Positions 23,830-37,590 of a DNA stretch of 64,000 bases are shown here, in pieces; within the stretch, counting starts at the first letter, position 1, and each line of letters starts with the position of its first letter. Both the position numbers and the translations under genes were made by a program. The notes under the pieces are model-generated. The model did no database searches, was not told the origin of the DNA, and saw only the letters and a program-made list of their open reading frames with translations. The DNA is from a virus: positions 37,928 through 101,927 of IMG/VR virus record IMGVR_UViG_3300036790_000386; one strand, 5' to 3'.

Positions 23830-24930
23830 TTAGATACCATCGCGATATGCGACAGTTTCAGGATACACAACTTCCAGCACGCCAAGACGGCAGAAATATG
23901 TGGACTTGTGATAGATACCATCGTACTGGATAGGTGTACGCTGAAGCAGAGTCATTGGATAGCGAAGGCGCTCTGGATCTTTGGTGTAGGCAACCATACG
24001 ATCGACTGTACCAAGAGTACCAACAGTACCACCAATACCGGCACCAATCAGCCACTTCAATGGAAAGATCTTCAACTTGGCAACGCCTGAAGAAGTCAGC
24101 AGATTGTTTTCAAGAAGATAACGCAGAATAGATACGTTACCAGCAGCAGAGACAATCTGAGTAGAAACATAGGAATACTGAGCAGGAGGCAGAAGCAGGC
24201 GGTTGGGTGGGAATGCCCAGCCAGAGGTTGCCCATGTATTATTCAGAATTTCATTAACGTCATTCAGAATTTCTGGTGGAGTCTTGTTAACCCATTGAGT
24301 GGCATTAGTAGCACCAACAGCAACAGTAGCAACATTGGAAACTTGACCAAGATTTGCACTGGAGTTGTTATAATTAACAACACCATATTCAGCAAACTCA
24401 GTATCGCCGTAATACACCATTTCGTCAATGTCCATCTGGTGCTTCAGCTGCATACCGAAGAACTTTTGCTGATCAATAGGACGACCAACAAGAGCAGATG
24501 ACTCAAGTTCAAGAATGGTATACTTCAGTTCCATTGACCAGGGACGCAGAGCATGGGGAATCTTAGCAATATCAACTGAGATACCAGTAATCTGCGTAGT
24601 ATCTTTGCCGACCCAAGATTTACCGTTGCCAATGCCAACGCCAGAGGTACCGATGTTTGCGCCTGCCGCAGAACCATAGGTGGACAGTGTAAAGCTGGAC
24701 ACCTCGTTTGCAATGGTCACATCTTCTCGAAGATCAATATCACGACCCCAAGTAACAGCAGCCAGTGGTTCATGCAAACGCAGGTCTAAGCGCTCAAGCT
24801 CGCCAACTAGAAATGAACCAGTGGAGTCAGCAACCTTGCCATCTGCCATCTTAACACGCATTGGCAAAGTTTTGCCTCGCATATTACCTTGCGCATCATG
24901 CGAATATTCGCGTCCATCAAAAGTCATCAT
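23830..24930 (-). CDS. Major capsid protein, DUF2184-like
   Basis: 366 residues. Recognisable DUF2184 features: PLAAVTWGRDIDLREDVTIANE, DIAKIPHALRPWSMELKYTILELESS, KHQMDIDEMVYYGD, NRLLLPPAQYSYV and LRYPMTLLQRTPIQYDGIYH. Builds the HK97-fold shell. Preceded by the cement and the protease/scaffold genes. Confidence 0.85.
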   Translation of the reverse strand: MMTFDGREYSHDAQGNMRGKTLPMRVKMADGKVADSTGSFLVGELERLDLRLHEPLAAVTWGRDIDLREDVTIANEVSSFTLSTYGSAAGANIGTSGVGIGNGKSWVGKDTTQITGISVDIAKIPHALRPWSMELKYTILELESSALVGRPIDQQKFFGMQLKHQMDIDEMVYYGDTEFAEYGVVNYNNSSANLGQVSNVATVAVGATNATQWVNKTPPEILNDVNEILNNTWATSGWAFPPNRLLLPPAQYSYVSTQIVSAAGNVSILRYLLENNLLTSSGVAKLKIFPLKWLIGAGIGGTVGTLGTVDRMVAYTKDPERLRYPMTLLQRTPIQYDGIYHKSTYFCRLGVLEVVYPETVAYRDGI

Positions 24931-25526: not shown

Positions 25527-27179
25527 TTAGCGAGTCGAGCCGCCGGTGCCCCAGATTTCGCTGGATTTTTCGTCGATACGCTTACGCAGATCGGCAAGAG
25601 AAGAAACCGTCCCAGCTTGATGGGCTGCCGAGTGTGGATTACCGCCAGTAACCTGAACAAAGGCTTGATTATTACGGTCACGGTAGACAGAAGCCAACGC
25701 ACGATAAGTTGTTCCAATGGAATCGCAAGTCATGCGTCGCATGTCGGCTCCACCAGTAATATTTTCCAAATCAGTAGCTTTCTCCATATCATGAGAAACA
25801 TGATTCAAAATACGGCGACGGAAACCGCAAATAGCGGTAACAGCCGAAACTGGATTTGAACGAGAATCAAAAGTTGGAACGCGAACACCTGGAACAATGA
25901 TTTCAGCATCAGCTACAACTGCTTCCCAAAGACTCTGGAGACGTACAGCAGCATCAGCAGCGCGACGACGCTTATCACCAACTCCAGCATTAACTGCTGA
26001 AGAAGAACCGGCTGGAGCTTCTGCACCAAATCCGCGTGGAATTTTCTTTGACGCAACTGTCACCGGACCTGGATGATCGCTTTCAATTGCAGTGCCTTCG
26101 TTGTAATCAGCGCCTTCATAGATACCTTTATTAGGCTCATGATTATACTGAGGTGTTTCACGATGCAAATTAGCTTCATCTCCGAAATTACCCATACCAT
26201 CACCTTCGGTGTCTTCTCCGCCACCTTCGGCCCCAACTTCAAGCTCTCCACCTTCATTGCCTTCTTCACCAATACCAAGAGCTTGGCAAATTTGGCCTAC
26301 TTGGCTTTTTAGTGCTTCAACATCAGCTGCAACTGTCGCAAGATCAGCAGTTGGAGCAGCTGGTGCAGCAGCAGGCGCTGCCGCTGGAGTAGGTAAAGTA
26401 GAAGTATTTGGAACTGTAGGCGGCATAGCATCTTCTCCTGCAGAATGTGGGTGTAAATGAATATGAGTATGATCGCCGTCACCAGAAGTAAGTTCTGCTG
26501 CTTTCTTCTGACCTTCAACGGCCAAATTTGCTAATTCGCCGGCATCGGTGGTCTTTGTAGCTTTAGACAAAAGTTCACCGATCCAACCAAATTTATTCTC
26601 AGCTGGCATTGATTGATTCTCCACTTGAGTTGGTGCACTGTCGTAAATTCGACATTTTGGTCCACACCGAGCAGAATCAACCAATGCGACATGATTGCCG
26701 ATTATATTAATCTGCCTCGCTTTACCCGGACCCATTTGCTCGTATTCAGCATCATAGCCACAAGATAGCTCTCTCTTAGATTTATTGAGAACCATATCAA
26801 TAGCTAATTCATCAGTAATCAAAAGATCCGCTAGAACTACATCATCTTGTACTCCAGTCCCTCGGCGTGGATTTAAAACTACTCCGACAGCTAAATCACG
26901 CCAATTTTCAGGTGTAACATCAACTACTGAGCCATCTTGAGTTGGATGCTCAATAACAAATGGTTTACCTGAATAAGAGGCTAAAGACTCTGGTTTAAAT
27001 ACTTCTTCAGGCGGACGATCAACATGAATAAAACCATTACCATCTGGCTGAAATGGCATTTCGTCTGAAGTATAAAGTTGAACTCCTGTACGCGCTATAA
27101 TCGTATCTTTACACAGCAGAAAACCTTCTGGTGTTTTGAACATTTTATCGCTAAGTTGCTCAGTGAAATAAAATCGCAT
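25527..27179 (-). CDS. Prohead protease/scaffold, DUF2213-like
   Basis: 550 residues. The first 180 residues (EGFLLCKDTIIARTGVQLY, GKPFVIEHPTQDGSVVDV, NKSKRELSCGYDAEYEQ, IIGNHVALVDSARCGPKC) are DUF2213, a prohead-protease-related domain with HP, RELSCGYD and NHVALV motifs. The middle contains GDGDHTHIHLHPHSAG, an alanine/proline linker and an acidic stretch EGNEGGELEVGAEGGGED. The C-terminal part would act as scaffold. Confidence 0.75.
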   Translation of the reverse strand: MRFYFTEQLSDKMFKTPEGFLLCKDTIIARTGVQLYTSDEMPFQPDGNGFIHVDRPPEEVFKPESLASYSGKPFVIEHPTQDGSVVDVTPENWRDLAVGVVLNPRRGTGVQDDVVLADLLITDELAIDMVLNKSKRELSCGYDAEYEQMGPGKARQINIIGNHVALVDSARCGPKCRIYDSAPTQVENQSMPAENKFGWIGELLSKATKTTDAGELANLAVEGQKKAAELTSGDGDHTHIHLHPHSAGEDAMPPTVPNTSTLPTPAAAPAAAPAAPTADLATVAADVEALKSQVGQICQALGIGEEGNEGGELEVGAEGGGEDTEGDGMGNFGDEANLHRETPQYNHEPNKGIYEGADYNEGTAIESDHPGPVTVASKKIPRGFGAEAPAGSSSAVNAGVGDKRRRAADAAVRLQSLWEAVVADAEIIVPGVRVPTFDSRSNPVSAVTAICGFRRRILNHVSHDMEKATDLENITGGADMRRMTCDSIGTTYRALASVYRDRNNQAFVQVTGGNPHSAAHQAGTVSSLADLRKRIDEKSSEIWGTGGSTR

Positions 27180-27526: not shown

Positions 27527-27994
27527 TTAATGATAATAAACATCAAGATGAGTAGCAGCGGTCAAAGTTGTATGATCACCATCAGCAATAGCAGAAGTCA
27601 CACAATACCCTGTAAATGGGCCAACACCATACTGGTCATTCAGAATTGTGCGGCTAACACCGGAAGGAATAACAACCAAAGCAGACACAGTTGTCAAGGA
27701 ACAAGTTGGCGCCGCAGTTGTGCCAGAATAGAAATGCACAAACTCTTGAGCACCAGCTGTTGCTTGAATATCATAAACTGCATTACCTGTCGTAGACAAA
27801 AGACTGGTAATTGTAACACCAGAAACTGCAACAGTATCCTGAATTTTCAACCCTGGACCAGTCGGTACAAGACCAAAATTCTGCTGAGGAGAACCAAGTG
27901 CTGGTGGAGTGTATGCATAAGCACTTGCTAGGCCAAAGCTGGTTGTAAGAGCCGCCATAGCAGCACCCACGCCAAAATTAAGAATTTTCGACAT
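27527..27994 (-). CDS. Secreted or virion protein, paralogue B
   Basis: 155 residues with a signal-peptide-like N-terminus (KILNFGVGAAMAALTTSFGLASAYA). It shares YTPPALGSPQQNFGL, AAPTCSLTTVSALV, ILNDQYGVG and a final DVYYH with the neighbouring gene at 28028. Probable beta-sandwich. A Sec signal is unusual for a capsid-region protein; it could instead be a virion decoration with an N-terminal hydrophobic helix. Confidence 0.55.
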   Translation of the reverse strand: MSKILNFGVGAAMAALTTSFGLASAYAYTPPALGSPQQNFGLVPTGPGLKIQDTVAVSGVTITSLLSTTGNAVYDIQATAGAQEFVHFYSGTTAAPTCSLTTVSALVVIPSGVSRTILNDQYGVGPFTGYCVTSAIADGDHTTLTAATHLDVYYH

Positions 27995-28027: not shown

Positions 28028-28507
28028 TTACTTGTAGTAAACATCTACATCATCGCCAGCAAGCAATGCTGTTGTGTCGCCATTAGCTGCAAGACCTGTT
28101 GCACAGAAACCAACACCGCCAGCAAAGCCAACACCATACTGGTCATTTAAAATGACACGCGTTGTTGCCGACGCTGGAAGCTCAACAAGAGCAGAAACTG
28201 TTGTCAATGAGCAAGTTGGCGCTGCTGTAACCCCAGCATATAGATGCAGCCAAACAGGTGAAGTACTAGGCACAAAACCTTCAACATCAAAAACAGTACC
28301 AGTCGAAGATTTAACAAGTACGGACATAACAGAAGTTGTGCTGACATTGTGAGTAACACTGAGACCAGAACCAGCAGGCTCAAGACCCATATTCTGCTGA
28401 GGCGAACCAAGACTTGGTGGTGTATAAGCATATGCGTTTGCAGTGCCCAAACCAACGGTAAGTGCTGCAACCGCAACGCCTTTACCAAAATTAAGAATCT
28501 TCGTCAT
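28028..28507 (-). CDS. Secreted or virion protein, paralogue A
   Basis: 159 residues, tandem duplicate of the next gene downstream: same signal-like start (MTKILNFGKGVAVAALTVGLG), YTPPSLGSPQQNMGL, AAPTCSLTTVSALVELP, VILNDQYGVG and terminal DVYYK. Two cysteines are shared with the paralogue. Function unknown. Confidence 0.55.
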   Translation of the reverse strand: MTKILNFGKGVAVAALTVGLGTANAYAYTPPSLGSPQQNMGLEPAGSGLSVTHNVSTTSVMSVLVKSSTGTVFDVEGFVPSTSPVWLHLYAGVTAAPTCSLTTVSALVELPASATTRVILNDQYGVGFAGGVGFCATGLAANGDTTALLAGDDVDVYYK

Positions 28508-28804: not shown

Positions 28805-28978
28805 TTATCGATGAAAGAAAGGATGAAAATAAAATGGAGGCACAACATAAACAGGAGGTGCAACATAAATAGGCGCGGAACCATAATTACACTCTGTTCC
28901 AACAAACGAAGTCTCACATTCTGCAACACAACCAGACAAAGCCAAGCTAAAAACAAGTAATACAAGAATTTCAGCCAT
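28805..28978 (-). CDS. Small outer-membrane-type lipoprotein
   Basis: 57 residues from ATG 28978, which has AAGGAG upstream. MAEILVLLVFSLALSGC is a lipoprotein signal peptide with a clear lipobox (LSGC). The mature part is short, has two more cysteines (AECETSFVGTEC) and a Y/P/F-rich tail (YVAPPVYVVPPFYFHPFF). It overlaps the end of the PSD-like gene. Could be an Rz1-like spanin or a superinfection-exclusion lipoprotein; neither is proven. Confidence 0.55.
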   Translation of the reverse strand: MAEILVLLVFSLALSGCVAECETSFVGTECNYGSAPIYVAPPVYVVPPFYFHPFFHR

Positions 28979-29732
28979 ACTCAGGCTCCTTGGTGCCATT
29001 TTGTATGTCTCCTAATTCAATTTTATCGGACATACTCAAAATTTCAAAAAGAGCGTCAATTCCAGCTTCAACATGTACGCCATTTTTAATCAATGGCTTC
29101 ACTTTAGAGGCTGGAATAATCAAATCAACCTGACTTCCACTTCTCAAAAAACTAAAACGCTCATTCTGATGGAAATAAGCATTCTGTTTAGTCGAAAATG
29201 GTGTAATTGTATTAACTTCATCATCTGCAATTTGAACTACATAGTATTTGAAGCCTAAAACAGGGCAAAAAACTGTATTCACAAACCTTGCGTTATAGAC
29301 TTCATAGCCGGAATACTTAAAATTAACAATATCTTTTAAAATATCATTTTCAGTCATAAGCATCGGCGCGTTATAGCTCAAAATTGAAGGCAAAGCACGG
29401 TAATAGACAATTCCGTTTGTCGGCATACGATTAATATGCACATCGTAATAAGTCATAAAAATTCCAGCTACAAAATAGCTTTTTTCTTCAAGTTCTTCAT
29501 CAACTATTTCACTAATTTTGTGATGTTTTCCTTTGAATTCTATAGAACCGTCAGCTGAAACTTCTGAAAGATAAAGCAAAACACCATCAGCAGGTGAATA
29601 CAACACTGACGAGTCCATAATTCGGCTTCTGTATGGATCGCGAAAGAACAAAACCTCCGACATGAGCCTTTCAGAAACTGGATTAAATGCTTCACTGGTC
29701 TCTTTTGCCCAATCTTCAAGATTTTTAGCCAT
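28971..29732 (-). CDS. Phosphatidylserine decarboxylase-like protein
   Basis: 253 residues from ATG 29732; a longer frame from TTG 29759 overlaps the upstream gene more. Motifs of the family: LYSPADGVL (Asp 49), YYDVHINRMPTNGIV (His 99) and FLRSGSQVDLIIP (Ser 200). These are the Asp-His-Ser residues needed for self-cleavage to a pyruvoyl enzyme. The usual LGST is changed to SGSQ. It has no membrane helix. It overlaps the DDAH-like gene by eight bases, so the pair is co-expressed. Substrate may be a lipid or a small amine precursor. Confidence 0.7.
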   Translation of the reverse strand: MAKNLEDWAKETSEAFNPVSERLMSEVLFFRDPYRSRIMDSSVLYSPADGVLLYLSEVSADGSIEFKGKHHKISEIVDEELEEKSYFVAGIFMTYYDVHINRMPTNGIVYYRALPSILSYNAPMLMTENDILKDIVNFKYSGYEVYNARFVNTVFCPVLGFKYYVVQIADDEVNTITPFSTKQNAYFHQNERFSFLRSGSQVDLIIPASKVKPLIKNGVHVEAGIDALFEILSMSDKIELGDIQNGTKEPEYG

Positions 29733-30645
29733 CTTCAGATCTGCCTGGTTGAAAATCAAAGTAATTTAAATGCATTACAAGACAAGAAAGAGCAGCACCA
29801 GACTTACCAAATTCAGAAATATTAAAAACAACAGAATCCATACTATTGTCAGCAGCAAATTTTCCAACAAAATCGACCAAATCACGTTCGACCTTGTATT
29901 TATCATCCGAAATCTTTAACTTTGAAATAGAAGAACCAACAACAACAAGACGCCTAACCCTAAGACAGTTTGTTGCTCCAGCTGCAACCAATTCTGAAGG
30001 AGCAGAAATGACTTCAGTGACTTTTTCAAGCTCTTTAAGTTCTTTTGCATCAATCTCTCCTATGGCTACAACTGTTTTCTCCTTTGTTAAAGGAAACAAA
30101 ACGCAGTCAAGGTGATATGCTTCAGGATTTTTAAGTCTAATTCCTATAATATTCATATTATAAGTTTCTTCAAACCATCTAATAGCAGCTGCATTTGTCC
30201 TCATGCCATAAGACATAGCATAATTATTGCCACCAAGATATTTACAGTCTGCTTCTCCTTCAAAATACTTTGGTGCAAGATCAACTACATCTTTAATTCC
30301 AAGCATTTTTAAGAATTCAAAGCCTGGTCTTGTTTCACCTTGACGCGGCGGTGAACGAAAATTCGCCACCACCACAGTGTACTCTGGCAAATGAGGCAAA
30401 ACCACACCAAGATTGGCCACAAAAGGTTGGTCCTGAAGACCAGCATATGAAGGAAGCAAATAAACAAGAGAAATAGAAGACAAAAAATTATAAAAATCGA
30501 GAAACTGCCGTAAAGCAATTGACTTATCAATCTTTCTCTCAGTTGGAGAAAGCTCTTGCATGAAAACATTATTAGGGCTTCCAGAGTCTAAAAAGAATGG
30601 AGGACTCATTAAGAAGCAAGGATAATTTACTTTATTAAAATCCAT
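29725..30645 (-). CDS. Amidinotransferase-fold enzyme, DDAH-like
   Basis: 306 residues. Pentein-fold guanidine-modifying features: LQDQPFVANLGVVLP, a glutamate in YFEGEADCKYLGGNNYAMSYG (about residue 131), AYHLDCVLFPL (His 178) and SGAALSCLVMHLN (Cys 288). Together these give the usual Glu-His-Cys active site, so it should be catalytically competent on arginine, methylarginine or a related guanidine. It is translationally coupled to the PSD-like gene. The role in a phage is unknown. Confidence 0.7.
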   Translation of the reverse strand: MDFNKVNYPCFLMSPPFFLDSGSPNNVFMQELSPTERKIDKSIALRQFLDFYNFLSSISLVYLLPSYAGLQDQPFVANLGVVLPHLPEYTVVVANFRSPPRQGETRPGFEFLKMLGIKDVVDLAPKYFEGEADCKYLGGNNYAMSYGMRTNAAAIRWFEETYNMNIIGIRLKNPEAYHLDCVLFPLTKEKTVVAIGEIDAKELKELEKVTEVISAPSELVAAGATNCLRVRRLVVVGSSISKLKISDDKYKVERDLVDFVGKFAADNSMDSVVFNISEFGKSGAALSCLVMHLNYFDFQPGRSEDG

Positions 30646-31610: not shown

Positions 31611-31820
31611 TTACTCTGAAATTGTATACAAGCAGTTACCACAAAATCGCTCTTTCATTAGCGGTTTGAAGTTCTTTTTGCATAAGGGACAAATTTTAGA
31701 TTCAATTGTAGGTTTTGCCTTGGAGGCTGCAACTGAAGCTGCATTATATGCTTCAGTTGCTTTAGTTTTAAGATGTTCAATCGTTTTTGGAAACTTTCTA
31801 TTAGACCGCTTTATTGACAT
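31611..31820 (-). CDS. Small zinc-ribbon protein
   Basis: 69 residues. KICPLCKKNFKPLMKERFCGNCLY is a four-cysteine zinc ribbon (CxxC, 13 residues, CxxC). The N-terminus is basic and alanine-rich. It overlaps the 3' end of the portal gene by 20 bases in another frame. Probably nucleic-acid or protein binding. Confidence 0.6.
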   Translation of the reverse strand: MSIKRSNRKFPKTIEHLKTKATEAYNAASVAASKAKPTIESKICPLCKKNFKPLMKERFCGNCLYTISE

Positions 31821-33981
31821 TGCCGATCTCCAACCAGCGCTTTAAGCCAGGGATATCAGTCTCACGAATTGAGAGAATGTTGCCGCCACCAGGATATGAA
31901 TTTCTGTACGCTGCAACAGCATCGGCGGAAGATTTAAAGCCAAGCATAATCTTGTGTTCATCAAAACTATTAGCATCGGCCCCAGATGTATTCATCTTGC
32001 CTTGGTTAACAATCCAAGCACGAGTTGAATCCGCATGCGGCCCCACGAAACAGTCCATCCCTTCACCAAATCCTTCGGCGGATCTGGTGTTTCTGATGTA
32101 TCCATAATCAGCTGCCAAAGGAGGAAACCCATCAAATCTAATCTGACCAATAAAGTTTTCTAAAAAGATAGGCAAACCTTGAAAATCAATTAAAGGCATA
32201 TTGTTAATAGCAGTAGCTACGTCATCGATGGCTTCTGTAAGCGAAGAAGTTGAACCGTTATTCATGATTCCTTTAGGGGATTCATATTTTTCATAAGTTG
32301 CATTAATGGTGCCTGGGTTTTCAATAGGAAGACCAGGACCTTCATTTACACCAAACGGACCTGTAGCAATATCATCAGTTGCGTCTGGCTTAACTTCAGG
32401 AGCAGCAGATGGAATTGGTGTTGATTCGCCAGACAACTTATTTAAGTGGCCCGGTTGAACGCCAGGAGCACCTGTTGGAGAACCATTATTAGGCGATTGA
32501 GTGCTATTTGCACCAGGCTCAGTTGGCGCTGTAGCTGCCATTGTTAGACTTGGCGGCATTTTACCTTTAGCCGCAGCAATTTCAGCATCAGTAATATTGG
32601 TCCACAAGCCATTAACAATAGATGCTTGTTTCAGTTCCTTCATGGCTGTAGATGCGTCAACTAGGCCAGCTTCCCAAGCAGAGAGTACGGCAGATGTTGT
32701 CTGAGCAGAAGCTGTTGCACGTTCTGTTTCAGAAAGCTGCCAAAGAGGATTGAAAACAAAATTAAAATCTTCAGGAATTGGAATACCTTCTGATTTTGCC
32801 ATCGCACGGTATGTGCGATCAATCATCGGGCGAAGTTCACGTTCCTGACGCTGGCGGATGCCGTCATAGTAGTTGCGCATGTCAGATTCGCCAGTTGAGT
32901 TTAAGCCGGCGGGAGACTGACCAAAAAGACGAACCAGTGGAATTTGCAGAGCACCCGAAATCTGCTGCCCAAAGTGAATAAGAGCATCAGCAATGCCGGA
33001 GAAAGATGTTCCAGCGCTAACTTGCGCAGCAAAATCATCTTCACTATCGATAAGTGTTATACCTTCAATACCTTGGTAACGGCGCATCATTTCAACGTAC
33101 TGTTGAAGCTGATTTACCTGCATGCCACCAGCAGCTACAATTTCTCTGAGGCGAGCAATCTTGAGCGTACGAATATATGATTTGTAAACAAGCTGTGCTG
33201 CGCCATTAGTTGCGGAGTCAAATGCGATAAGGCGATCGTAGAGTCTTTCCACAACGGAAATGCCCCACATATTCTCCATAACTCGTTGCCAGTAGGGAAG
33301 TCTAACACCTTCGTGACGCAAGACTCTTGAATGGTGGATACGCATACCTTCAAAAGAGACACCCGAACCTGACGCGATAACCCAGTAAGATCTTGGTACA
33401 AGCGAATCGTCCCCAACACCGCGAATCATATGTTGAAGATCTGGTTCGACCATCCAACGATCAAATACCATTAAGCCACGAAAAGAGCCACGACCGATGC
33501 GTTCAATATCAAGAGGATTACGTGGGTCTTGACCATCAATCATAATGGCAGATAAAGCTCCACCATAAAGACGACCCCAACGAATTGTATCGTTAATAGC
33601 GTACCAAATGCCCCACTTAGTAGCAGCCGCTTCAAGTTTTTTAATCGCGCCTGGAGGCATCTCAGAAGTAATAGTGATGCCCATCTTAGTCATATCATCA
33701 GCAATAGCATCAATCGCTACACCAACGATCCATGATCCTCTATGAATCCATTCTAAAAGAGTTCTGTCCCGCGTAACAGGAAGAAATCCATAAGTAGAAT
33801 CTGAAAGTGCGTTATTGGTACCAAGGCCAAGATTTAATGAAAAATTTTGGAAAGTATCACCGACTTTAGCACTAATTAATCCATCGGGATTGACGGTAGT
33901 CCCTTGTGCGCGAGTCTGTTGTTTATCAGACCGCGCTGAAACTCTATAACGAGGCTTTGTTGGTTTCTCTTCTTCAGCCAT
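31801..33981 (-). CDS. Portal protein (DUF1073) fused to inorganic-pyrophosphatase-like domain
   Basis: 726 residues. Residues 50-480 are a DUF1073/phage portal: TLLEWIHRGSWIVGVAIDAIADDMTKMG, WGRLYGGALSAIMIDG, RIHHSRVLRHEGV, GTSFSGIADALIHFGQQISGALQIPLVRLFGQSPAGLNSTGE. A linker of about 90 residues rich in P, S and T follows. The last 150 residues (AADYGYIRNTRSAEGFGEGMDCFVGPHAD, WIVNQGKMN, FDEHKIMLGFKS) match the InPase-like domain that is often fused to phage MuF-type proteins. Portal ring plus an enzymatic or effector tail. Larger than the usual 450-500-residue portal. Confidence 0.85.
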   Translation of the reverse strand: MAEEEKPTKPRYRVSARSDKQQTRAQGTTVNPDGLISAKVGDTFQNFSLNLGLGTNNALSDSTYGFLPVTRDRTLLEWIHRGSWIVGVAIDAIADDMTKMGITITSEMPPGAIKKLEAAATKWGIWYAINDTIRWGRLYGGALSAIMIDGQDPRNPLDIERIGRGSFRGLMVFDRWMVEPDLQHMIRGVGDDSLVPRSYWVIASGSGVSFEGMRIHHSRVLRHEGVRLPYWQRVMENMWGISVVERLYDRLIAFDSATNGAAQLVYKSYIRTLKIARLREIVAAGGMQVNQLQQYVEMMRRYQGIEGITLIDSEDDFAAQVSAGTSFSGIADALIHFGQQISGALQIPLVRLFGQSPAGLNSTGESDMRNYYDGIRQRQERELRPMIDRTYRAMAKSEGIPIPEDFNFVFNPLWQLSETERATASAQTTSAVLSAWEAGLVDASTAMKELKQASIVNGLWTNITDAEIAAAKGKMPPSLTMAATAPTEPGANSTQSPNNGSPTGAPGVQPGHLNKLSGESTPIPSAAPEVKPDATDDIATGPFGVNEGPGLPIENPGTINATYEKYESPKGIMNNGSTSSLTEAIDDVATAINNMPLIDFQGLPIFLENFIGQIRFDGFPPLAADYGYIRNTRSAEGFGEGMDCFVGPHADSTRAWIVNQGKMNTSGADANSFDEHKIMLGFKSSADAVAAYRNSYPGGGNILSIRETDIPGLKRWLEIGNVNKAV

Positions 33982-34521: not shown

Positions 34522-37500
34522 TTAAATGTGTTTGTTTAAGGCTCGCGTACCTTTAGGTACGATCCAAGTTCCTGGCTTTAAGACTCTTTCTTCAAGATCG
34601 CACGGAAAAGTAATTTTTGATGGAGAAGATAAAAATAGAATTTCTTCATCAGCTTTCGGCTGTTCACGTCCACGACGAATTCTAATTTCATTCATGAGAT
34701 GAACTACCTTTGCAACCTCTACTCTTTCTTTCCAACTTTCATATCTTGCAGTTTGTATTGCAAGCTGTTGTTCTTTGTCAATTTTAGCTTTACGTGCAAG
34801 TTTCTGCCATGTGGCCCATGTGCCACGACATGAAGTGACAATAAGACCAGCAACACACCTAGCAAGGTAATCAGATCCAGAGGAAAATACAGAATCGCGA
34901 CCTGCTTTAGTTATTGAACGTTCAAGATCGCCCATTTGATTGAGCATCTTAGCGTTTTCTAAGAGTTCTACTTCACCAGCCGCCAAAATTGGCATGAAAT
35001 CACGATAGATTTCAGGAAGCGTTAAAGAAGTTGGACTATAGATGATACCGTGAACGGAGAAATATTCTTTGGGCCAATTTCCACCAAAGTGATCACCTTC
35101 AATCTTTGCGATGCCATAGCTGCGCATAATAGAGCATATGTCAGCAATAGTTTTTTCAAGACTTTCTTGAATCGAATAATCTTTAACAAAATCTAACATC
35201 GCTACATTATCTTCAGCCATATGTGCGATAGCAAATGCTGGCCTCTCTGACGTTGACCCCGGTACGGCGAAGAAAGCAGAGTAAACTATGTTATTTGAAG
35301 GTGGCAGTTCAAGCCGGCCTTCAACTACGCAACGACCAATAACCCCACGCGAAGCATAAGAGGATTTAGTGAAGCTAGCTTTAATTTCATTCCACTTATA
35401 GCGCGCAAACGCCAAAGAGCAAACACAATCATCGTAAAGACCCTCGGGTGCTGTATATTTGATACCAGCGCGAGTGATTTCATAAGTGAAATCCTGCATT
35501 TCAGATTTAATCGGACCATCAGGAAAATGCACTTCATGAGTCTGAACCGACATCGCCAAACCTTCCATGAGGTTTTGCTTGGATGACGGATTTAAAATAT
35601 AACCTTCAAAGTTTTCGTAACCACCTTCTTGGAGTGACTCTAAAACTGGATCACCTAGCCCTGAACCATCAACAACACAAGGAGTGAGGTCACCAACGAT
35701 TTCTCTAACGAGTTTAACTGACTCTTTCCAAGATTTATTTTTCCAGCGATCAAAGTGGCAAACATAGCCATCTCGATCAAGACCAATGATAACGAACCAA
35801 GTTTTTTTACGAGCTAGATCAACTCCCCAAGCCACAGGAGACTCAGAACTAAGATTAGCAACACAGCGTAAAATATGGTCTTCACCGAATGGATTACCGT
35901 AATCGTCACTCGGCTCTGCAAGATAAAGTTCACGAAATACCGCATCTGGAAGTTGCTCTTTTAGGGATTTAACTTCAGAGTCTGACATAACACCACCTTC
36001 GATGGCGTCAAAAATTGTCAGTTTTGCGTAATGTAAATCGCTATCTTCTTCGTCCATCGTGGACTCAGCAAGACGCGCCATATTATAGAACCAGTTACGC
36101 TTTCCTTTAACGTTACCAATAATGATAGCAGCGCCTTGAGTCGCTGAAAGCGTAGAGCGAACAGCGTGCCAGGATAATTCCTTTACACGCGAAGCTTCAT
36201 CAATAACAGCACCATAAACATCTTCACCGAAAAGAGAATCAGGATTATCACCTGATTTAAACCAAAGAACAGCGCCATTCATTAAAGTTATTGTTTTGCG
36301 TTGTTCGTTAGTCATATAGCTGCCAGGAGTTAAATAGGTCTTCAACCGGCGAAAGGCAATATCAGCTTGATCTGAAATTGGAGCAACCCACCAATAGTTT
36401 CTATTGGTTGGGCCAAGCAAAGCCATTTCGGTAATCCAAACAATGGAACCGACGGTGTTATGTGTTGGTACGAAACCATTTGTAAGATACAGGTGTCTTG
36501 TATCTTCAACTTCAATACATTGCGCCTCCGCAATTCTAGAAAATTCAATTTTATTGAAAAATCTATTTCCAGTCTTCTTCATAGGCTTCATTAATTGAAG
36601 TTTACGAGGAAGCCTAAATGGAATAAGATTAGATGGCAAAATTAAAACTTGACGATAACGACCTCTACCGTGGCGCAATGTTCCAATTGGACTGCAATAT
36701 GACGCAGACTCATCATAAGTCTGTTTAACCATACCTCCTAAAGATTCTACAAGTTCTTTCACATCTTTTGCAAGTTGTTCAGAACTTTGTTCTAAGATTG
36801 GTTGGCCATGTTTATTTACTGATCCATCTGAATCCATAATTCCCTGAAGAATAGAAATTCTAATTTCCGTGGAATTATAAAGATAGGATATCGGAATAAA
36901 TTTCTGGTGAGAATAACAACCCCACAATTTCAGATTTTTTAAATAGCTGGCTATGTGTTGTTTTGCCTCTCTTATTTTAGCGGCAAATTTTCCACATGTA
37001 ATATGATAATCATACTGGTCTACGTGCCGCAAAAAATGGCCAGCAGGTAAGACTTTTTTAATTTCTTCTAAAATTTCAAAATCAGCAGAAGAAACTCTCA
37101 CAACTTCAGTTGTAAAATTGCCATCGCCAATAAGAATCCCTAAAAGATAAGGATCAATATCTATAGATTTAATTTCAAATTCAACTGGAGCACAATCAGG
37201 AACATATTGATACCTGAGCCAGCTACTTTTAAGATCTAAAAGTTCAGAAACTGCCCTAATTCTTGGTTTACCTTGATTATTATGAACTTCCCAAAGATGT
37301 TCTTTGTCGCATTCAACAATAGTTCCATCAACAAAAGTTATAGCATAAATCTCGCGCAAACCTTGCGGATGTATGGCTACAATTTTAGTAGCTTTACCAT
37401 TAGCTCCAAAAACAAAATCACCTACTTTCAGGTCTCCCATAAGTTTGGGACCTGCTGGTGTATAAATTTTTGAATCTAAAGGTTGAGCTTTACCTGCTTT

Positions 37501-37590
37501 TGAAGTTGCTTCAACTAGGGTAAATCGTTTGCCCGAAAATAGAGCGGCCTCTTGTTTCGGATACAACCCTGGTCTTGAATATTCAGGCAC
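34522..37590 (-). CDS. terL: Terminase large subunit with intein and degenerate second nuclease domain
   Basis: 1022 residues from a GTG. The Walker A motif EATSKAGK/T is interrupted after Lys34 by an intein (residues 35-378). The ATPase continues with WWVAPISDQADIAFRRL and Walker B AVIDEA (461-466). The packaging nuclease has WGVDLARKKTWFVIIG (Asp591), CVVDGSG (Asp641) and GLYDDCVCSLAFA (Asp720/721). Beyond it, residues 768-918 look like a second terminase nuclease fold (AFAIAHMAEDN, IEGDHFGGNWPKEYF, AAGEVELLENAKMLNQMGDL, GSDYLARCVAG) in which expected metal ligands are missing. Cleaves and translocates DNA into the prohead. Confidence 0.9.
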   Translation of the reverse strand: MPEYSRPGLYPKQEAALFSGKRFTLVEATSKAGKAQPLDSKIYTPAGPKLMGDLKVGDFVFGANGKATKIVAIHPQGLREIYAITFVDGTIVECDKEHLWEVHNNQGKPRIRAVSELLDLKSSWLRYQYVPDCAPVEFEIKSIDIDPYLLGILIGDGNFTTEVVRVSSADFEILEEIKKVLPAGHFLRHVDQYDYHITCGKFAAKIREAKQHIASYLKNLKLWGCYSHQKFIPISYLYNSTEIRISILQGIMDSDGSVNKHGQPILEQSSEQLAKDVKELVESLGGMVKQTYDESASYCSPIGTLRHGRGRYRQVLILPSNLIPFRLPRKLQLMKPMKKTGNRFFNKIEFSRIAEAQCIEVEDTRHLYLTNGFVPTHNTVGSIVWITEMALLGPTNRNYWWVAPISDQADIAFRRLKTYLTPGSYMTNEQRKTITLMNGAVLWFKSGDNPDSLFGEDVYGAVIDEASRVKELSWHAVRSTLSATQGAAIIIGNVKGKRNWFYNMARLAESTMDEEDSDLHYAKLTIFDAIEGGVMSDSEVKSLKEQLPDAVFRELYLAEPSDDYGNPFGEDHILRCVANLSSESPVAWGVDLARKKTWFVIIGLDRDGYVCHFDRWKNKSWKESVKLVREIVGDLTPCVVDGSGLGDPVLESLQEGGYENFEGYILNPSSKQNLMEGLAMSVQTHEVHFPDGPIKSEMQDFTYEITRAGIKYTAPEGLYDDCVCSLAFARYKWNEIKASFTKSSYASRGVIGRCVVEGRLELPPSNNIVYSAFFAVPGSTSERPAFAIAHMAEDNVAMLDFVKDYSIQESLEKTIADICSIMRSYGIAKIEGDHFGGNWPKEYFSVHGIIYSPTSLTLPEIYRDFMPILAAGEVELLENAKMLNQMGDLERSITKAGRDSVFSSGSDYLARCVAGLIVTSCRGTWATWQKLARKAKIDKEQQLAIQTARYESWKERVEVAKVVHLMNEIRIRRGREQPKADEEILFLSSPSKITFPCDLEERVLKPGTWIVPKGTRALNKHI
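36457..37488 (-). mobile_element. Intein with LAGLIDADG homing endonuclease in TerL
   Basis: 344 residues in frame. It begins AQPLDSKIYTPAG (Ala1 instead of Cys/Ser, seen in several phage inteins), has a splicing block B (GTIVECDKEHLWEV), two LAGLIDADG-type helices (YLLGILIGDGN at 148-158 and ILQGIMDSDGS at 247-257) and the terminal block LYLTNGFVPTHN followed by Thr379 of the host protein. Splicing would restore KAGKTVGSIVW and so the ATP-binding loop. Confidence 0.9.

Follow-up and report, generated by a model that had tools for sequence, protein, structure and literature searches.

Why would a phage keep, between the genes for its portal and its capsid, a guanidine-modifying enzyme and a decarboxylase that resembles phosphatidylserine decarboxylase (PSD)? 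Such a pair lies in the window analyzed here, a 64,000-nt part of a virus record of 101,927 bases (~ 102 kb), and we looked for an answer in the setting of the two genes, in their relatives in phages and bacteria, and in the predicted chemistry of each enzyme.

The gene pair and its distribution

The guanidine-modifying (GM) enzyme, an arginine dihydrolase-like protein of 306 aa, is encoded at 29725..30645 on the minus strand, followed on that strand by a PSD-fold, presumably pyruvoyl-dependent decarboxylase (hereafter PSD-like) at 28971..29732, which has 253 aa counted from its ATG. Both reading frames are intact, and the end of GM and the beginning of PSD-like share exactly 8 bases (29725..29732, minus strand, ATGGCTAA), through which translation of the two is presumably coupled. 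The ATG start of PSD-like (MAKNLEDW...) is also used by its homologues, and a longer ORF of 262 aa begins at an upstream TTG. Upstream in the same block are the terminase, which contains an intein, and a portal protein fused to an inorganic-pyrophosphatase-like domain (31801..33981, minus strand); downstream are a DUF2213 head maturation protease (25527..27179, minus strand) and the major capsid protein (23830..24930, minus strand), so that the placement of the overlapping pair between portal and capsid genes, as given in the initial annotation, is correct. Measured against the nearest relative, both genes are under purifying selection, with dN/dS of ~ 0.11 for GM and ~ 0.19 for PSD-like.

Some neighbors of the pair deserve mention in their own right. 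The intein of the terminase large subunit (34522-37590, minus strand) has a LAGLIDADG endonuclease domain, and the terminase of the nearest relative (L001) is without an intein. The C-terminal domain of the portal protein is PF18823, and the portal ORF of that relative is alike in length and C-terminal sequence. Two adjacent paralogues with signal-peptide-like starts (27527-27994 and 28028-28507, minus strand) lie between the pair and the protease; the relative has a similar tandem, and the one member scanned gave no family match. The early region, in the left part of the same virus record, encodes a uracil-DNA-glycosylase-like protein (L183:9467-10639) and a ParB/DNA methylase fusion (L183:7279-8775).

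Searched against 50,697 phage records, GM had 46 matches and PSD-like 45, and the same 45 records, 39 from Campylobacter phages of the Fletchervirus type and 6 from Bacteroides phages, had both; the 46th GM match comes from a Xanthomonas phage and is a distantly related DDAH. Eighty aquatic loci from IMG/VR, which were picked by the GM enzyme alone and show some redundancy, their GM sequences reducing to 20 at 85% identity, held the PSD-like gene in all but one case (L084), which ends at the contig end; the gene was nearly always directly downstream of GM, its start abutting or overlapping the GM stop. Among 387 Verrucomicrobiota genomes that served as a control group, a close GM was found in 2 and PSD-like in the same 2, while 5 further genomes had distant dihydrolase-type relatives only. 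Physical linkage cannot by itself account for the retention of both genes, as they are ~ 43 kb apart in the Campylobacter phages. Independent occurrence of the two was not seen among the phage relatives, and by this strict co-occurrence the two genes are a real functional module.

The location of the pair varies between phage types. Aquatic T4-like phages (83 loci, a few contigs among them occurring twice) have it downstream of the major capsid gene, an assignment checked on one representative (phrog_138); protease and portal lie upstream of that gene, and a PhoH-like gene follows the pair. The head module of the window phage is unrelated to theirs, yet the pair again sits there. The label of virion operon, which the locus had been given initially, therefore suits the window phage and the aquatic T4-like phages but not the Campylobacter phages, where the genes are unlinked and outside the head block, or the Bacteroides phages, where they lie outside that block near replication genes (primase and dCTP-deaminase-like). 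The pair is also found in cultured phages (NCTC12673 and Bacteroides SJC03).

Chemistry of the guanidine-modifying enzyme

The GM enzyme has no Pfam match, and its NCBIfam matches to dimethylargininase (6.6e-17) and arginine dihydrolase (3.8e-13; 49 bits, with a cut-off of 450 bits) both fall under the curated cut-offs. In a profile search of the PDB, its only significant matches were the arginine dihydrolases ArgZ/AgrE, which were also the best structural match of its model (pLDDT 93; Z 35.4, rmsd 2.1). Z scores were lower for DDAH (27.9), succinylarginine dihydrolase (27.8) and arginine deiminase (26.8), and lower again for glycine amidinotransferase (GATM, 24.6), SxtG (24.5) and agmatine deiminase (21). 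The Glu-His-Cys set noted initially is indeed intact: Glu129-His178-Cys288 are invariant in the enzyme and 41 relatives and align with Glu118/His168/Cys264 of ArgZ/AgrE. Asn26 and Asn78, likewise invariant in the 41 relatives, align with Asn22 and Asn71 of ArgZ/AgrE, the latter being the residue that is mutated in 6juz, a structure with a trapped intermediate. We considered this asparagine signature as proof of a dihydrolase, an argument weakened by the Mycobacterium-type DDAH relatives, which have both asparagines too, so that the signature does not separate dihydrolase from deiminase or DDAH chemistry. Arg101 and Arg149, also invariant, match the arginines that in DDAH bind the alpha-carboxylate of the substrate, and their retention suggests an amino acid as substrate rather than agmatine.

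It can thus be hypothesized that the Cys-His-Glu center strips the guanidine group of L-arginine, most likely by a double removal as in ArgZ/AgrE, which would yield L-ornithine, CO2 and ammonia. The two enzymes could also be joined by another intermediate, either with PSD-like converting arginine to agmatine and GM acting on the agmatine, or with GM stopping at citrulline and PSD-like producing N-carbamoylputrescine. Aspergillus oryzae does have a PSD-fold arginine decarboxylase (9jf5), and the asparagines common to GM and the Mycobacterium-type DDAH relatives would fit as well, but we consider such routes unlikely, given that ArgZ is clearly the best match of GM, that agmatine deiminases are far from it (Z 21 vs 35), and that it keeps two arginines for an alpha-carboxylate that agmatine does not have. 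GenBank entries of the Campylobacter phages annotate GM as an amidinotransferase, in which case amidino transfer would give a guanidino compound and the by-product or precursor would be decarboxylated. GM does belong to the same fold superfamily, as the Z scores of GATM and SxtG indicate, but ArgZ is much closer. Moreover, hydrolases presumably use Glu at the position of Glu129 and amidinotransferases Asp (Cys-His-Asp triad); the Asp expected for a glycine-type amidinotransferase is absent from GM, where the hydrolase-type Glu129 is invariant, and amidino transfer is in our view very improbable.

Substrate of the PSD-like decarboxylase

PSD-like matches Pfam PS_Dcarbxylase (PF02666) well above the cut-off (2.8e-21; 76.5 bits, cut-off 22) and fails every NCBIfam equivalog cut-off (best 66 bits vs 183). 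Its model is moderately confident (pLDDT 83), and E. coli PSD was the sole family with significant Foldseek E-values. Counted from the upstream TTG ORF, as are Gly208-Ser209-Gln210 throughout, the residues Asp58, His108 and Ser209, and also Gly208, are invariant in 32 relatives. The Asp-His-Ser set described in the initial annotation thus holds, while the change in the LGST motif that it stressed turns out to be ordinary: GSQ is at least 90% conserved in the PSD-like family, and canonical short PSDs read GSRVD. We therefore rejected SGSQ as a mark of lost activity, since the canonical short PSDs deviate from LGST as well. His147 of E. coli PSD is replaced by Arg111, the same as in canonical short PSDs, and the equivalent of His144 is retained. 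Self-cleavage between Gly208 and Ser209 would generate the pyruvoyl group, and the enzyme would then decarboxylate the free amino acid to putrescine.

That the substrate is a free amino acid is suggested above all by the bacterial relatives. When 84,980 genomes were scanned with the GM alignment, 52 loci spread over many phyla came up, and in 41 of these PSD-like adjoins GM, mostly in the order opposite to that of the phages; a MATE exporter follows the pair in many loci, and in Xenorhabdus an ABC exporter. Eleven loci are without PSD-like, two of them uninformative because masked or cut. Beside GM, four cyanobacteria of this group have a PLP ornithine/diaminopimelate-type decarboxylase, one Spirulina an Orn/Lys/Arg decarboxylase and one myxobacterium a carboxynorspermidine decarboxylase (6e-89); in the alphaproteobacterial loci L131, L132 and L148 there is no decarboxylase beside GM. 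Unrelated decarboxylases, all of them known to act on free amino acids or on precursors of polyamines, hence take the place of PSD-like, and this replacement, the strongest argument that we have on substrate class, points to a free amino acid as the substrate of PSD-like as well. Absence of PLP decarboxylases from the pair-carrying bacteria was considered as a further argument and set aside, as the picture is mixed, some of these bacteria having one PF02784 copy and no OKR_DC, and others having more.

An agmatine-deiminase-like gene is present in the cyanobacterial clusters as well, and their product may therefore be a different one. In three of them (L104, L105 and L106) genes for GM, an ornithine-type PLP decarboxylase, the agmatine-deiminase-like protein and an ABC transporter are clustered, and this may be an uncharacterised amine pathway. 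PSD-like and GM genes also occur in the insect-associated Xenorhabdus and Photorhabdus (L120-L126 and L129); in L120, read in detail, the ABC exporter gene comes next, and in Photorhabdus L121 the PSD-like gene is in two pieces ~ 1 kb apart.

The initial annotation had also proposed that the pair modifies a head group; in such a lipid pathway, PSD-like would act on phosphatidylserine or another aminophospholipid and GM would alter a head group that bears a guanidine. The Pfam match and the PSD fold are what such an enzyme would have, and in one survey psd genes of ocean phages were read as serving phosphatidylethanolamine synthesis (PMC11360552). However, the PSD-like family forms a clade apart from the canonical PSDs (95* in the tree), and the hydrophobic N-terminal membrane segment of canonical short PSDs was not found in it; the maximum N-terminal hydropathy is 0.26 for PSD-like (about -0.7 to 0.9 in the family) versus 1.2 to 2.6 in the canonical short PSDs. 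Nearly all examined bacterial genomes with PSD-like retain a separate canonical PSD, a Latescibacterota genome being the exception. Together with the soluble PLP amino-acid decarboxylases that stand in for PSD-like in cyanobacteria and the small-molecule exporters that adjoin the pair, this leaves a lipid pathway with little probability. The PSD fold itself is compatible with a free amino acid, as the PDB has such enzymes for arginine (9jf5, Aspergillus oryzae) and for tryptophan (PsiD, 8zia).

A candidate route to putrescine and its known counterparts

Taken together, it is probable that the pair makes some arginine-derived amine, and to the specific two-step route, from arginine to ornithine and on to the diamine putrescine, we would give an even chance on the strength of sequence and models. 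In bacteria, the pair beside an exporter would make the amine for export. In the window phage and most of its aquatic relatives, the position among the head genes would mean late production, when DNA is packed, and putrescine could provide counter-ions for the packaged DNA and also for late synthesis. In T4, both the synthesis and the maturation of DNA depend on polyamines, and polyamines are packaged by several phages (PMC7226272). A polyamine-like molecule for DNA charge balance, one of the functions first proposed for this locus, is thus the best-fitting option, although we are less sure of the packaging role than of the chemistry, as the pair is outside the head block in Bacteroides phages and its genes are unlinked in Campylobacter phages. 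We also considered an extension to spermidine and rejected it: AdoMet decarboxylase (PF02675, AdoMet_dc) had no match in the window phage and 24 other virus records, and neither the window phage nor any of the scanned relatives has a spermidine synthase, so that the diamine is the expected end product.

Both genes occur in the Fletcherviruses, a group known to have unusual DNA, and the presumed product would be suitable for joining to a base, like putrescine in phage phiW-14, but such hypermodification is the least probable reading of all, with no thymidylate synthase homologue found in the window, Campylobacter or Bacteroides phage, no base-hypermodification family (0) among 40 early proteins scanned, and an exporter adjoining the pair in bacteria.

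In its fullest form, the proposal for the putrescine route is that an ArgZ-like dihydrolase and a PSD-fold pyruvoyl ornithine decarboxylase constitute an undescribed arginine-to-putrescine pathway, found in scattered bacteria and in phages with no fewer than four unrelated types of genome, and run late by the phages to neutralise DNA at packaging, and that the labels 'phosphatidylserine decarboxylase' and 'amidinotransferase' in Campylobacter phages are wrong; we hold this whole to have somewhat less than an even chance. If true, a PSD-fold enzyme would join the decarboxylases of polyamine synthesis, annotations would be corrected in therapeutic Campylobacter phages and in ocean gene surveys, and the old question of whether phages make their own counter-ions for DNA packaging would gain a direct genetic handle. 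The pair is small and conserved, and cultured phages have it.

We found no description of this enzyme pair in the part of the literature that was searched, but each half has known counterparts. The GM enzyme resembles the N-terminal domain of ArgZ/AgrE (PDB 6jv0, 6jv1, 6juz and 6lrh) in fold (Z 35, rmsd ~ 2), in its Cys-His-Glu center, in the equivalents of Asn22 and Asn71 and in its substrate-binding arginines. Unlike ArgZ/AgrE, it is a stand-alone protein of 306 aa, with a decarboxylase as its partner and no fusion to an ornithine cyclodeaminase, and it is only 23% identical and far under the NCBIfam cut-off. PSD-like shares its fold and its Asp/His/Gly-Ser cleavage motif with the PSD and archaetidylserine decarboxylase family (PF02666, TIGR00164), and the Arg after the catalytic His with the short PSDs. 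It differs from canonical PSDs in its separate clade, in GSQ, in being without a hydrophobic N-terminus and in coexisting with a canonical PSD. The arginine decarboxylase of A. oryzae (9jf5) and PsiD (8zia) likewise use the PSD fold on a free amino acid, but these are fungal and distant from PSD-like (13-15% identity, Z ~ 9). Polyamine genes already known in phages and viruses include AdoMetDC-derived pyruvoyl ornithine/arginine decarboxylases, arginase and agmatine deiminase (PMC9992855). The pair would share with these the presumed output, the pyruvoyl trick and the phage-borne location, while it uses unrelated enzyme families at both steps and would bring together, in one coupled cassette, a complete arginine-to-putrescine pair.
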